A DNA stretch of 64,000 bases. Origin: Faecalibacillus intestinalis (lineage in GTDB: Bacteria; Bacillota_I; Bacilli_A; Erysipelotrichales; Coprobacillaceae). Shown in pieces: positions 334-3,682 of this stretch (the first letter of the stretch is position 1; each line of letters starts with the position of its first letter). Position numbers and translations under genes: made by a program. The stretch lies in the NCBI RefSeq assembly GCF_003024685.1, contig NZ_PYLQ01000001.1, forward strand, positions 62,001 through 126,000, given 5' to 3'. Below the pieces are notes generated by a model, which did no database searches, was not told where the DNA came from, and saw only the letters and a program-made list of their open reading frames with translations.

Positions 334-1767
334 ATGGTATTAGAAAAAGAAAGAAAAAAGAAAACACGTATTGTGTGTACAATTGGGCCAGCTTCTGAAG
401 ACAAAAAAGTCTTAACTAAATTAGTTCAAGCTGGAATGAACGTAATGAGATTAAACTTCTCTCATGGTGATTTCGAAGAACATGGGGGAAGAATTAAAAC
501 TTTAAGAGAAATCAACAAAGAATTAAACAAAAACGTAGCTATCTTATTAGATACTAAAGGACCTGAAATTAGAACTGGTGATTTCGTTGGTGGGAAAACT
601 GAATTCAAAAAAGGTCAAGTTTCTACTATCTGTGTAGAAGATATTGAAGGAACAAGTGAAAGATTTACAATCACTTATAAAGATTTATATAAAGATGTTA
701 AACCAGGTGGTTTCATCTTAGTAAACGATGGTCAAGTAGAATTATTAGTTGATCATGTTGATGGTACTGATATCGTATGTATCTGTGCTAACGATGGTGT
801 TGTTAAAAACAAACGTGGAATCAACGTTCCAGGAATCAAATTAGGATTCGATTACTTATCAGAAAAAGATATCGGAGATTTAACTTTTGGTTGTCAACAA
901 GGTGTTGATTTCATCGCTGCATCTTTCGTAAGACGTCCACAAGATGTTTTAGATGTTAAAAAATTATTAATTGAAAACGGTCGTCCTGAAATTCAAATCA
1001 TCGCTAAAATTGAAAACAGCGAAGGTGTTGAAAACATGGATGATATCTTAAAAGTTGCTGATGGTATCATGGTTGCTCGTGGTGACTTAGGTGTAGAAAT
1101 TCCTGCTGAAGATGTACCATTAATTCAAAAAGAATTAATCAATAAATGTCGTGCTGCAGGTAAAATCGTTATCACTGCTACTCAAATGTTAGATAGTATG
1201 CAAGAAAACCCAAGACCAACACGTGCTGAAGTATCTGACGTTGCTAACGCAATCTATGATGGTACTGATGCAATCATGTTATCTGGTGAATCTGCTCAAG
1301 GTAAATATCCAGTAGAAGCTGTTGAAACTATGACTAAAATTGCTTTAAAAACTGAAGGAACTTTAGATTATGCTTCATTACAAAGAAAAGCAATCAGAAC
1401 TGCTCCATTAGATCAAAGTGAAGCTATCTGTATGTCAGTTGCTGAAATCGCATCTAAATTCAACGTTGCTGCAATCGTTGCATTCACTGATTCAGGATTT
1501 ACAGCTAGAAAAATGTCTAGATATCGTACTAAATCTATGATTATTGCTGCTACTCCAAATGAACAAACTACAAGAGCATTAGCTATCAACTGGGGTGTTA
1601 AATCAGTATTATGTAAACAAATGGATACAAGAGCTGCTATGATTGAATATGCTCAAGTTATCGCTAAAGAAAACTTAGTTGAACCAGGTGAACAAATCAT
1701 TGTTACTGCTGGTACACCAGGTGTTGCTGGAACTACTTCTTATTTAGAATTAATTACAGTAAAATAA
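334..1767 (+). CDS. pyk: pyruvate kinase
   Basis: Pyruvate kinase converts phosphoenolpyruvate and ADP to pyruvate and ATP in the cytoplasm. At 477 residues it covers the A, B and C domains. The N-terminus has TRIVCTIGPAS and MNVMRLNFSHG. The middle carries IIAKIENSEG with the catalytic lysine, then MVARGDLGVE and ITATQMLDSM. The C-terminal allosteric domain ends at LELITVK. It lacks the extra PEP-utiliser (PEPut) domain of many Bacillus enzymes, so it is the short form. Translation starts at ATG 334 behind GAGG at 322-325. It is the last gene of the pfkA-pyk unit and is followed by a strong terminator. Confidence 0.97.
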   Translation: MVLEKERKKKTRIVCTIGPASEDKKVLTKLVQAGMNVMRLNFSHGDFEEHGGRIKTLREINKELNKNVAILLDTKGPEIRTGDFVGGKTEFKKGQVSTICVEDIEGTSERFTITYKDLYKDVKPGGFILVNDGQVELLVDHVDGTDIVCICANDGVVKNKRGINVPGIKLGFDYLSEKDIGDLTFGCQQGVDFIAASFVRRPQDVLDVKKLLIENGRPEIQIIAKIENSEGVENMDDILKVADGIMVARGDLGVEIPAEDVPLIQKELINKCRAAGKIVITATQMLDSMQENPRPTRAEVSDVANAIYDGTDAIMLSGESAQGKYPVEAVETMTKIALKTEGTLDYASLQRKAIRTAPLDQSEAICMSVAEIASKFNVAAIVAFTDSGFTARKMSRYRTKSMIIAATPNEQTTRALAINWGVKSVLCKQMDTRAAMIEYAQVIAKENLVEPGEQIIVTAGTPGVAGTTSYLELITVK

Positions 1768-1780
1768 TTAAAATTAATAA

Positions 1781-1813
1781 AAAAAGCTCCGTTTCATTTG
1801 AAACGGAGTTTTA
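1781..1813. terminator. bidirectional Rho-independent terminator (pyk / S24 repressor)
   Basis: Arms CTCCGTTTC (1787-1795) and GAAACGGAG (1800-1808) form a perfect 9-bp stem with an ATTT loop. A runs flank it on the left and T runs on the right, so it can end both pyk (+) and the repressor gene (-). Confidence 0.9.
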
Positions 1814-1816
1814 ATT

Positions 1817-2440
1817 TTAGTTTCTTTTAGAAATAACAAGGGCAAGTTTTCCAATGATTTTAAATTCATGATAATTATATTCATTAATAATAATTGGAGA
1901 ATATTTATCATTTGCAGGTTGTAAAATAATACAGTTTTGTTTAGAATCATTAAAATATTTTTTACATGTTGCAATATTATCTTCAATGCCAAAACATCCC
2001 ACATCACCATTATTAAGTTGCTGTGTCTTTTCAAAAATAATAAGATCCCCAGATTGAATATTTTCATCAATCATACTATCTCCATCAGCATATTGACAAA
2101 AGTAATCCTTTCGAGAACTTAATAGAGATTCAGGTAAAGAAATATATTCTTCAATATTGTCTTCAACAAAAATACCATCTCCACAACAAACATCACTATA
2201 TAAGGGAATATCTATATTATGACTATGTCCATGATAGGCTGGCTCATCAATACCTAATAAATAATTAGGAGTAACATTAAATATTTCTGCAAGTCGGGAA
2301 AGTGTTTCCTTTTTTAAATTAGGAACACGTCCGTTTTCATATTTAGCAATTGCTGATTTTTGAACACCGAGCATTTCTCCTAGTTGTTGTTGAGTCAAAC
2401 CCTTTTCTTTTCTTAATTTTTTAATACGTTCACCTGTCAT
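1817..2440 (-). CDS. XRE-family repressor with S24 (LexA-like) self-cleavage domain
   Basis: A 207-residue DNA-binding repressor of the phage CI / ImmR / LexA-like type. Residues 3-63 are a Cro/C1 helix-turn-helix (GLTQQQLGEMLGVQKSAIAKY). Residues about 78-204 are an S24 peptidase-like domain: nucleophile Ser122 in GDSM and Lys160 in ATCKKYF match the Ser-Lys dyad. A Cys86-Gly87 pair ahead of the domain is a candidate autocleavage site; Ala-Gly is usual, and Cys-Gly is known from phage phi80 CI. It is divergent from a 37-residue membrane peptide gene, and both promoters carry copies of one dyad motif, so it probably represses itself and that gene and lets go upon DNA damage. No phage genes are nearby, so a domesticated regulator is possible. 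It is not canonical LexA, whose HTH differs. Confidence 0.88.
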   Translation of the reverse strand: MTGERIKKLRKEKGLTQQQLGEMLGVQKSAIAKYENGRVPNLKKETLSRLAEIFNVTPNYLLGIDEPAYHGHSHNIDIPLYSDVCCGDGIFVEDNIEEYISLPESLLSSRKDYFCQYADGDSMIDENIQSGDLIIFEKTQQLNNGDVGCFGIEDNIATCKKYFNDSKQNCIILQPANDKYSPIIINEYNYHEFKIIGKLALVISKRN

Positions 2441-2453
2441 CTTATCACTCCTT

Positions 2454-2460
2454 GTGTCTT
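2454..2460. promoter_or_regulatory. operator half-site O1 for the S24 repressor
   Basis: GTGTCTT lies between the repressor's -10 box (2472-2477) and its start codon (2440). It is identical to the left arm of O3 at 2553. The matching right arm is weak, so this is scored only as a half-site. Its position would allow autorepression. Confidence 0.45.
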
Positions 2461-2471
2461 AATATTACCAT

Positions 2472-2477
2472 ATTATA
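2472..2477 (-). promoter_or_regulatory. -10 box of the S24 repressor promoter
   Basis: Read on the minus strand this is TATAAT, 31 bases upstream of the start codon. No good -35 hexamer is seen at 17 bases. Confidence 0.5.
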
Positions 2478-2495
2478 GACTATGTAGTAAACAAA

Positions 2496-2512
2496 ATATC
2501 TAAAAAAGACAC
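2496..2512. promoter_or_regulatory. operator O2 for the S24 repressor
   Basis: ATATCTA-3-AAGACAC matches the O3 dyad architecture (7-bp arms, 3-bp centre). The right arm is perfect and the left arm keeps the TATCT core. It sits just upstream of the -35 box of the divergent small gene (2520). Confidence 0.55.
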
Positions 2513-2519
2513 AAAAGTA

Positions 2520-2548
2520 TTGACGAAACTTAGTGACGGAGTTATATT
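2520..2548 (+). promoter_or_regulatory. sigma-A promoter of the 37-residue peptide gene
   Basis: TTGACG (2520-2525), 17-base spacer, TATATT (2543-2548). The expected transcription start, about 2555, falls inside operator O3. Confidence 0.75.
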
Positions 2549-2552
2549 ATAA

Positions 2553-2569
2553 GTGTCTTAAAAAGATAC
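2553..2569. promoter_or_regulatory. operator O3 for the S24 repressor
   Basis: GTGTCTT-AAA-AAGATAC is a 17-bp dyad with one mismatch between arms. It lies exactly over the predicted start site of the small peptide transcript, a classic repression position. Confidence 0.65.
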
Positions 2570-2625
2570 AATAATAAAAATAAATTTTAAAAGTTGAAAT
2601 TAAAGAAACAAAAGGAGGAACTATT

Positions 2626-2739
2626 ATGGAAAAATTATCAAATAAGGGATTAGTTACAATCATTTTAGGTGCATTAATGATGGGATCGGTAGTAGTTCAA
2701 TGTGTTTCGCGTATCATTGATGCGATACTTATTTTTTAA
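2626..2739 (+). CDS. 37-residue single-pass hydrophobic peptide under S24-repressor control
   Basis: A short gene with one of the strongest ribosome-binding sites in the window (AAAGGAGGA, 2611-2620). The peptide starts MEKLSNKG, has a hydrophobic span at about residues 9-24 (LVTIILGALMMGSVVV) and ends RIIDAILIF. Positive charges at the N-terminus suggest an N-in orientation. It has its own sigma-A promoter and overlapping operator, and a short hairpin plus T run (2711-2736) over its 3' end may terminate it. Size, charge and repressor control recall SOS-induced membrane peptides such as TisB, but there is no sequence-level identification. Function is unknown: toxin-like depolarising peptide, membrane regulator or phage-remnant peptide are all possible. 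Confidence 0.7.
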   Translation: MEKLSNKGLVTIILGALMMGSVVVQCVSRIIDAILIF

Positions 2740-2745
2740 AAAATC

Positions 2746-2773
2746 TTGCTTTTTATATGCAAATAGTTATAAT
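2746..2773 (+). promoter_or_regulatory. promoter of the DegV gene
   Basis: TTGCTT (2746-2751), 16-base spacer, TATAAT (2768-2773), with the start codon at 2819. Confidence 0.65.
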
Positions 2774-2818
2774 AAGTTCCATTAGTATGAAGTTCAAAGT
2801 AACCTTAAGGAGATACAA

Positions 2819-3682
2819 ATGGAAAAAATTGCAATTATAACAGACTCATGTAGTGATATAAAAAAAGAATATAGAGAGTTATATGATATACATGTTTTAC
2901 CAATACAAATTCAATATGATGGAAAGAGTTATAGAGATGGTGTAGATATTACTTCTACTGATATTTATGCGATTCAAGATGAAAAAGTAATTAAAACTTC
3001 TTCACCAGTTGGAGAAGATTTGTTTAATTTGTTAGATCAACTAAAAGATAAAGGATATACTCATGTTATAGGTTTATTTTTATCTAGTGGTATATCTGGG
3101 ACAGGTAATCAAATGAGGTTATTTTGTCAAACTTATGAGAAATTAAAATGTTATATTGTTGATAGTCAAAGTGCATCAGTGGGATTAGGAGTTATTGCTG
3201 TTAGTCTTGCTAAATATAGAGAAGAAGGAAAATCTTTTGATGAATTAATTGAAATTGCAGATTTTTTGTGCTATCAAAATTATGCTTATTTTTCAATAGA
3301 TGATTTAAATTATTTACAAAAAGGTGGACGCATTGGCAAGGCTTCGGCATTTTTAGGAACAACACTAAAGATTAAACCAATTCTTTCTTTTGAAAAAGAA
3401 AATGGAGAAATTTATGTTCCAGCTAAAGTGAGAGGTTCAAAGAAAGTGAAATCAAAATTGATAGATTTAATAGAAAGTCATCTTGAAGAAAATCCACATC
3501 AAAAATTTGCATTGGCTATTGCAGATGCTAATAATTTGGAAGAAAGAAATATTTTGGAAGGAATGTTAAAAGAAAGGTTTCCTCAATTTACATATATAAT
3601 TGATGGTCATGTTGGTGCTGCTTTATCTTGTTATCTTGGTTCAGGACTTTTAGGAGTAGCAATTCAATTTTTACCAGAATAA
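2819..3682 (+). CDS. DegV family fatty-acid-binding protein (FakB-like)
   Basis: A 287-residue DegV protein. Family members bind a single fatty acid and, as FakB, present it to the kinase FakA for entry into phospholipid synthesis. Seen here: IITDSCSD at the N-terminus, TSSPVGEDLF, LFLSSGISGTGNQM with the conserved serine/threonine that holds the carboxylate, VDSQSASVGLG, and LQKGGRIG. Length is normal (about 280). It is monocistronic with its own promoter, SD AAGGAG (2807-2812) and a strong terminator. No fakA gene is visible, so the kinase partner is inferred. Confidence 0.92.
   Translation: MEKIAIITDSCSDIKKEYRELYDIHVLPIQIQYDGKSYRDGVDITSTDIYAIQDEKVIKTSSPVGEDLFNLLDQLKDKGYTHVIGLFLSSGISGTGNQMRLFCQTYEKLKCYIVDSQSASVGLGVIAVSLAKYREEGKSFDELIEIADFLCYQNYAYFSIDDLNYLQKGGRIGKASAFLGTTLKIKPILSFEKENGEIYVPAKVRGSKKVKSKLIDLIESHLEENPHQKFALAIADANNLEERNILEGMLKERFPQFTYIIDGHVGAALSCYLGSGLLGVAIQFLPE

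Follow-up and report, generated by a model that had tools for sequence, protein, structure and literature searches.

An XRE-S24 repressor, a divergent membrane peptide, and a protease gene with the same operator: a candidate LexA-independent damage switch in Faecalibacillus intestinalis

In Faecalibacillus intestinalis, an XRE-S24 repressor gene (minus strand) and a 37-codon gene (plus strand) stand divergently between pyk and a degV-family gene, and their operator recurs upstream of one further gene, which encodes an S41 C-terminal processing protease (Ctp). The window analyzed here is a 64,000-nucleotide stretch (G000:C1:62001-126000) of a 2.79-Mb genome in 53 contigs. The original prediction described the pair as a stand-alone damage switch with the peptide as its only visible output. 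Conservation of the pair and its operators in two genera, with no neighboring phage genes, bears out the stand-alone unit; the peptide's place as sole output is lost to the protease gene, which bears the same operator throughout the genus. Whether the whole is a LexA-independent damage checkpoint, with an inhibitor peptide and a recovery protease under one co-opted repressor, is in our judgment evenly balanced.

The divergent pair and its operators

Repressor, peptide, Shine–Dalgarno (SD) sequence, promoter, dyads, and half-site all lie where the original prediction had placed them (window coordinates):

1817–2440, minus strand: XRE-S24 repressor, 207 aa; HTH at residues 3–62, S24 peptidase at 79–199 (Pfam)
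2454–2468, no strand: O1 half-site GTGTCTTAATATTAC, where repressor transcription probably starts; 15/15 genomes have GTGTCTT or differ from it by one base
2462–2467, minus strand: candidate repressor −10, TAATAT, read by eye from aligned intergenic regions; TAATAT, TATTAT, or TAAAAT in the relatives inspected
2486–2491, minus strand: candidate repressor −35, TTTACT, read by eye; 18-bp spacer
2496–2512, no strand: O2 dyad ATATCTAAAAAAGACAC, between the two promoters; variants in 14/14 genomes with the region
2520–2525, plus strand: peptide −35, TTGACG; 94% identical over 14 genomes
2543–2548, plus strand: peptide −10, TATATT; 17-bp spacer from the −35; identical in 14/14 genomes
2553–2569, no strand: O3 GTGTCTTAAAAAGATAC, at the likely peptide transcription start; GTGTCTT-AAA-AAGATAC
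2613–2618, plus strand: SD AGGAGG, 7 nt before the ATG; a strong SD at the same place in all relatives listed
2626–2739, plus strand: single-TM peptide MEKLSNKGLVTIILGALMMGSVVVQCVSRIIDAILIF, 37 residues; homologues beside the repressor in both genera

Repressor orthologues occur in all six genomes of the window's own genus (g1), as well as in nine from another genus of the same family (g4). They are 66–98% identical, next best matches reach at most 50%, and the closest named relative is from Faecalibacillus faecis (98% identity). Every genome with a readable divergent region (14/14, including the window genome and one region split over two contigs; a 15th genome is cut at a contig end) keeps the repressor, the facing peptide gene, and the operators. 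Neighboring genes vary between g1 and g4, and downstream even inside g1, so that synteny alone does not explain the kept pair. Comparison of window positions 334–3682 with locus L005 (G004) gives 98–99.5% identity for pyk and the repressor, 41% for the peptide, and 74% for DegV; this drop suggests that recombination had an endpoint between the divergent genes or that rates were unequal.

At each of the two divergent promoters a candidate operator lies on the likely start site, and a dyad shared by both stands between them; this arrangement would provide autoregulation together with repression of the peptide gene. O3 begins five bases past the peptide −10 (its last bases are GAAAC in two g1 members) and is 92% identical over 14 genomes, against 48% for the promoter spacer and 51% for the 17 bases downstream. 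This difference and the rarity of exact sites—three for GTGTCTTNNNAAGAYAC in a pattern search of the 2.79-Mb genome, the two besides O3 being intragenic—indicate that the operator motif exceeds chance. The proposed TTGACG-17-TATATT promoter is present and conserved, but as a consensus match alone it is not significant (2 promoter-like sites observed vs. 2.9 expected in shuffles); its weight lies in conservation. The half-site in the repressor leader (2454–2460) can now be placed more exactly, directly after the conserved −10 of the repressor's likely promoter, whose −35 is TTTACT in g1 and TTGCAA in g4, with a spacer of 17–18 bp and AAGACAC after the −10 (by eye). We are highly confident that the repressor exerts local control over its own locus, peptide included.

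Peptides encoded opposite the repressor gene (14 genomes) are single-TM, 35–45 residues long, and preceded by a strong SD. The relatives' peptides are only 25–43% identical to the window peptide; common features are an M-x-[LMF][ST]-x-[RK]-G-[LIF]-x-T start and a C-terminal Asp (Asn in one). The pairing was to be doubted if relatives lacked the peptide or its SD beside the repressor; both are kept. The window peptide has a 19-residue hydropathy maximum of 2.30, with about ten residues after the hydrophobic core. Among g4 peptide genes, the median dN/dS is 0.27 (pairs not independent) and substitutions by codon position run 274:128:429, which indicates that the chromosomal peptide genes are translated and under selection. 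The peptide has no match in Pfam, NCBIfam, or PHROGs, and no library searched names its family. A SecE match to one relative's peptide (E 0.012) fell below the cut-off, and a structured RNA at the locus was set aside on the lack of any Rfam match in 1700–3000. A terminator-like stem at 2707–2725, followed by a T-rich run, overlaps the 3′ end of the peptide ORF (2 found vs. 0.1 expected). All nine g4 genomes carry a second small acidic ORF of 33–39 codons downstream of the peptide gene (L095-L103; e.g., relative +355 to +474 in L099), with a conserved C terminus (..DELDYENHIVEYDNEYPNASNAQE), no Pfam match, and only weak PHROG matches; this ORF may be a further output of the g4 switch.

A profile built from the chromosomal peptides only also finds peptides of weak similarity in prophage-like and integrative elements: G003:C82 (E 2.8e-8), G064 (E 2.1e-5), contig C45 of the window genome (E 1.2e-4), and G004:C2 (E 7.1e-4), with two more at E ~0.02 that share a [RK]G-x-x-T[IV] start. 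The E-values were calculated per genome, over short hydrophobic regions, so homology is likely for G003:C82 and tentative for the rest. Among the element contexts, L083 has an S24 repressor along with its integrase, and in L140 the integrase is accompanied by an XRE regulator. The latter, at ~67–72 kb of G000:C45 (L140:7317-11847), is an integrative element in the window genome that carries the integrase, the XRE regulator, and an AAA protein and encodes a 34-residue peptide resembling the window peptide.

The repressor joins a CI-type HTH (HTH_3, E 4.7e-17) to Peptidase_S24 (E 1e-25) and carries a Cys-Gly pair and a Ser/Lys dyad, the domains and residues of self-cleaving XRE-S24 (CI/LexA-like) proteins. 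The Ser122/Lys160 dyad and the possible cleavage pair, located at Cys86-Gly87, had both been predicted; they are present, and none of the 15 orthologues deviates. An AlphaFold2 model (mean pLDDT 85.7) matches structures of LexA, UmuD, and lambda CI, including RecA-bound ones and RecA-bound LexA among them, with a TM-score of ~0.8 by target length against LexA C-domains. The repressor is probably self-cutting. It matches phage repressor family phrog_4 at E 2.6e-47, and its nearest nonorthologues, XRE-S24 repressors of 50% identity in g4 (L277 and L278; G025:C76 and G064:C88), adjoin phage-tail-like gene clusters. Viral contigs and annotated phages held no close copies of the repressor or peptide, and repressor matches there stayed below 60% identity. 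These matches are naturally read as those of a phage repressor that has been co-opted, and the repressor/peptide unit looks like a domesticated phage switch. The description of the locus as free of phage genes holds locally; more broadly it does not, given that repressor and peptide both have relatives in phage-type elements.

A second operator at the protease gene ctp

A family-wide pattern scan that allowed one mismatch recovered the operator in g1 at one further intergenic place, C9:54996-55012, upstream of ctp (G000:C9:53480-54922). The 481-residue product has the TM anchor, PDZ domain, Peptidase_S41 domain (PF03572), and Ser/Lys dyad (Ser312/Lys337) of the Prc/Ctp family, together with PG_binding_1, and scores 274 bits against the NCBIfam prc model TIGR00225 (cut-off 218.6). 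Each of 43 family genomes has a single ctp copy above the threshold used. The ctp promoter, GTGAC(T/A)-17-TATAAT, is followed directly by GTGTCTAAAAAAGA(A/C)AC. The region upstream of ctp contains a lipoprotein-like ORF that carries an HELGH motif (L194:3557-4129) and an auxin-efflux-type transporter (L194:4177-5115); the HELGH-type ORF adjoins ctp in three other g1 genomes.

The site upstream of ctp scores 17/17 in all six g1 genomes and does not exceed 13/17 in 24 others of the family, among them nine g4 repressor carriers, in which the ctp operator is absent. Within g1 it is 96.5% identical, compared with 47.5% for the spacer and 36–37% for the following blocks (flanks overall 36–50%). When the pattern TATANT, 0–6 bases, TGTCT-5-AGA was run over g1, it recurred at the peptide promoter (5/6; the contig ends in the sixth genome) and at the ctp promoter (6/6). 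The remaining g1 matches were confined to single genomes, were mostly coding, or, in two species, lay within the leader ahead of an ACT-domain-like gene, where a riboregulator is probable. Over g4, the TATANT-coupled pattern recurred in 9/9 genomes only at the peptide promoter. A wide regulon was rejected, with other motif matches in the window genome intragenic or unconserved, and recurrent matches at contig ends of two genomes were repeats. The visible regulon would thus comprise one unit in g4 and two in g1, and the identity of the sites makes it very likely that ctp belongs to it.

Damage sensing, the proposed circuit, and its rivals

The repressor is the window genome's only LexA-model match and its only strong S24 match, as well as the only one with an XRE-type reading; two other S24 matches are weak and partial. 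It was rejected as LexA: TIGR00498 gives 79.6 bits (cut-off 110.95) with an alignment over residues 77–205 only, and the HTH is CI-type. The LexA DNA-binding domain (PF01726) has no match in the window genome, and LexA above cut-off is found in none of 40 relatives. LexA-like control of repair genes was likewise rejected, as the operator recurs in g1 only at the peptide and ctp promoters; none was seen at repair or polymerase genes, which argues against a full SOS regulon. From the residues and the protein family, DNA damage is the likely trigger of the switch.

The circuit we propose would work as follows. In an undamaged cell, the repressor would bind the dyads at the starts of its own gene, the peptide gene, and ctp, keeping all three off. 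Upon DNA damage, RecA filaments would stimulate repressor cleavage at Cys86-Gly87 through Ser122/Lys160, and peptide and protease would then be produced. The peptide would enter the membrane N-in, with its nonpolar C terminus outside, and division or growth would stop. Ctp, whose catalytic domain would lie on the same side as that C terminus, would clear the peptide, and growth would restart once repression returns. The joint rise of inhibitor and clearing enzyme would thus give a pulse, ended by returning repression. We infer repressor binding, RecA-dependent cleavage, induction, peptide activity, and the action of Ctp as the peptide's protease; peptide activity is argued by analogy, and the protease role from operator identity. 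The nonpolar C terminus carries little weight because the whole peptide is hydrophobic.

That the peptide is a division or growth inhibitor removed by Ctp is possible, if somewhat doubtful. That it has half the length of SosA and lacks an extracellular domain counts against a checkpoint, and absence of the ctp operator from nine g4 carriers means that the peptide does not require Ctp as a partner. The full proposal, which we offer tentatively, is a self-timed checkpoint in a LexA-less lineage, in which a domesticated phage repressor would induce a minimal membrane inhibitor and its protease through the same operator, the inhibitor being drawn from an unrecognized family of small membrane peptides of mobile-element early regions.

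The two-locus reading would fail if a separate regulator read a similar dyad at ctp and the repressor were limited to its own locus. The link between the loci is sequence identity, the ctp sites end in GAAAC or GACAC rather than GATAC, and the second dyad is missing there. These points are offset by the 17-bp identity, which includes the A-tract, by the same position after the −10, by the restriction of the ctp operator to genomes carrying the repressor, and by the occurrence of GAAAC at the peptide operator of two g1 members as well, so that we consider a separate regulator improbable. If instead the S24 domain answered a non-RecA signal, the unit could be an envelope-stress switch in which the peptide serves Ctp as an adaptor or regulator; both are membrane proteins, and the LexA-like IrvR of S. 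mutans is a reported exception to RecA dependence (PMC7101444). The cleavage residues are all intact here, however, and g4 keeps repressor and peptide without the ctp operator, which leaves this reading with little probability.

Other readings keep the switch and change what the peptide does. TisB had been cited for comparison; it is not the best analogue, as the protease link points to YneA/SosA-type inhibitors. A TisB/DinQ-like peptide would depolarize the membrane for dormancy or survival, and Ctp would serve envelope quality control rather than peptide removal. Peptide size, the single hydrophobic segment, and a polar Asp in the C-terminal half fit this, and E. coli has SOS-regulated single-TM peptides of this size (DinQ, PMC3567139). 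TisB and DinQ, however, are restrained by antisense RNAs; the locus has no Rfam match in 1700–3000, its peptide leader is short, and its SD is strong and open; ctp co-regulation would also go unexplained. We regard the depolarizing role as unlikely, though worth keeping in view. The pair could also be a mobile-element relic, in which an early-region membrane peptide of a phage or integrative mobile element (for exclusion, for example, or modulation of competing elements) was retained with its immunity repressor. Such an origin is favored by peptides of weak similarity encoded in the early regions of prophage-like and integrative elements, the window genome's included, and by the repressor's phage-family matches. 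A chromosomal pairing kept in two genera, purifying selection, and a host protease gene under the operator suggest a host role, and the element peptides likewise have no known function; we consider the relic reading improbable.

Relation to known circuits and implications

The checkpoint reading draws on circuits in which an S24 repressor governs a small single-TM protein and an S41 protease belongs to the wider circuit: LexA-YneA-CtpA in B. subtilis and LexA-SosA-CtpA in Staphylococcus aureus (PMC6051672, PMC6851548, PMC13396833). B. subtilis CtpA degrades the SOS-induced division inhibitor YneA (PMC6051672), and S. aureus CtpA counteracts SOS-induced SosA (PMC6851548). YneA works through its TM segment on TM7 of FtsW, and SosA, ChiZ, and SidA are predicted FtsW binders too (PMC13396833). 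The window peptide resembles YneA and SosA as a small single-TM protein divergent from an S24 repressor gene. The circuits differ in that the repressor here is XRE-S24 rather than LexA and the 37-aa peptide has no LysM or other extracellular domain and no detected homology: no extracellular C-terminal domain such as the LysM of YneA, and no Pfam match, was found in it. The protease gene itself carries the operator here, whereas B. subtilis CtpA levels are unchanged by DNA damage (PMC6051672).

The kind of system is already established by FddR of Francisella: there, a lineage lacking canonical LexA has co-opted a phage S24 repressor, which together with a divergent gene forms a minimal damage response (PMC13148647). 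FddR likewise controls its own gene and the divergent one, whose function is unknown, and some species have a second unit bearing the operator. It comes from another phylum and its operator has the form GTG-N11-CAC; its divergent gene is not described as a TM peptide, and the second unit consists of a paralogue with dinB, not a protease; EMSA and RNA-seq back FddR (PMC13148647). SidA of Caulobacter is also a small SOS-induced membrane peptide acting on division, but it is under LexA control in a Gram-negative bacterium (PMC13396833, PMC4211646). HdiR of Lactococcus, UmuDAb of Acinetobacter, and noncanonical LexA of Bacteroidetes are further LexA-independent or noncanonical S24 damage regulators (PMC8565304, PMC7273328); they control polymerase or repair genes, and no such operator-bearing gene was seen here. 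TisB and DinQ of E. coli are SOS-induced short membrane peptides as well (DinQ: PMC3567139); at the window locus Rfam gave no match in 1700–3000 that would point to an antisense RNA, and no library searched relates the peptide sequence to theirs. The open-licence texts searched contained no published description of a repressor/peptide/ctp system. The novel elements are the lineage, a divergent gene that encodes a membrane peptide, the apparent mobile-element family of that peptide, and the occurrence of the operator at the gene of a checkpoint-type protease as well.

If the proposed circuit is true, a phage repressor would have been built into a damage response in a common lineage of gut Bacillota with no LexA detected. 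Independently of Francisella, for which the route was proposed, this would be a case in which a "local unit grows into a network". The comparison of g4 with g1 shows that difference directly, as the peptide unit alone against peptide plus protease. B. subtilis makes its checkpoint-recovery protease constitutively; here the protease would be induced together with the inhibitor. The peptide would be among the smallest known damage-induced membrane effectors, and mobile elements would be a candidate pool for others.
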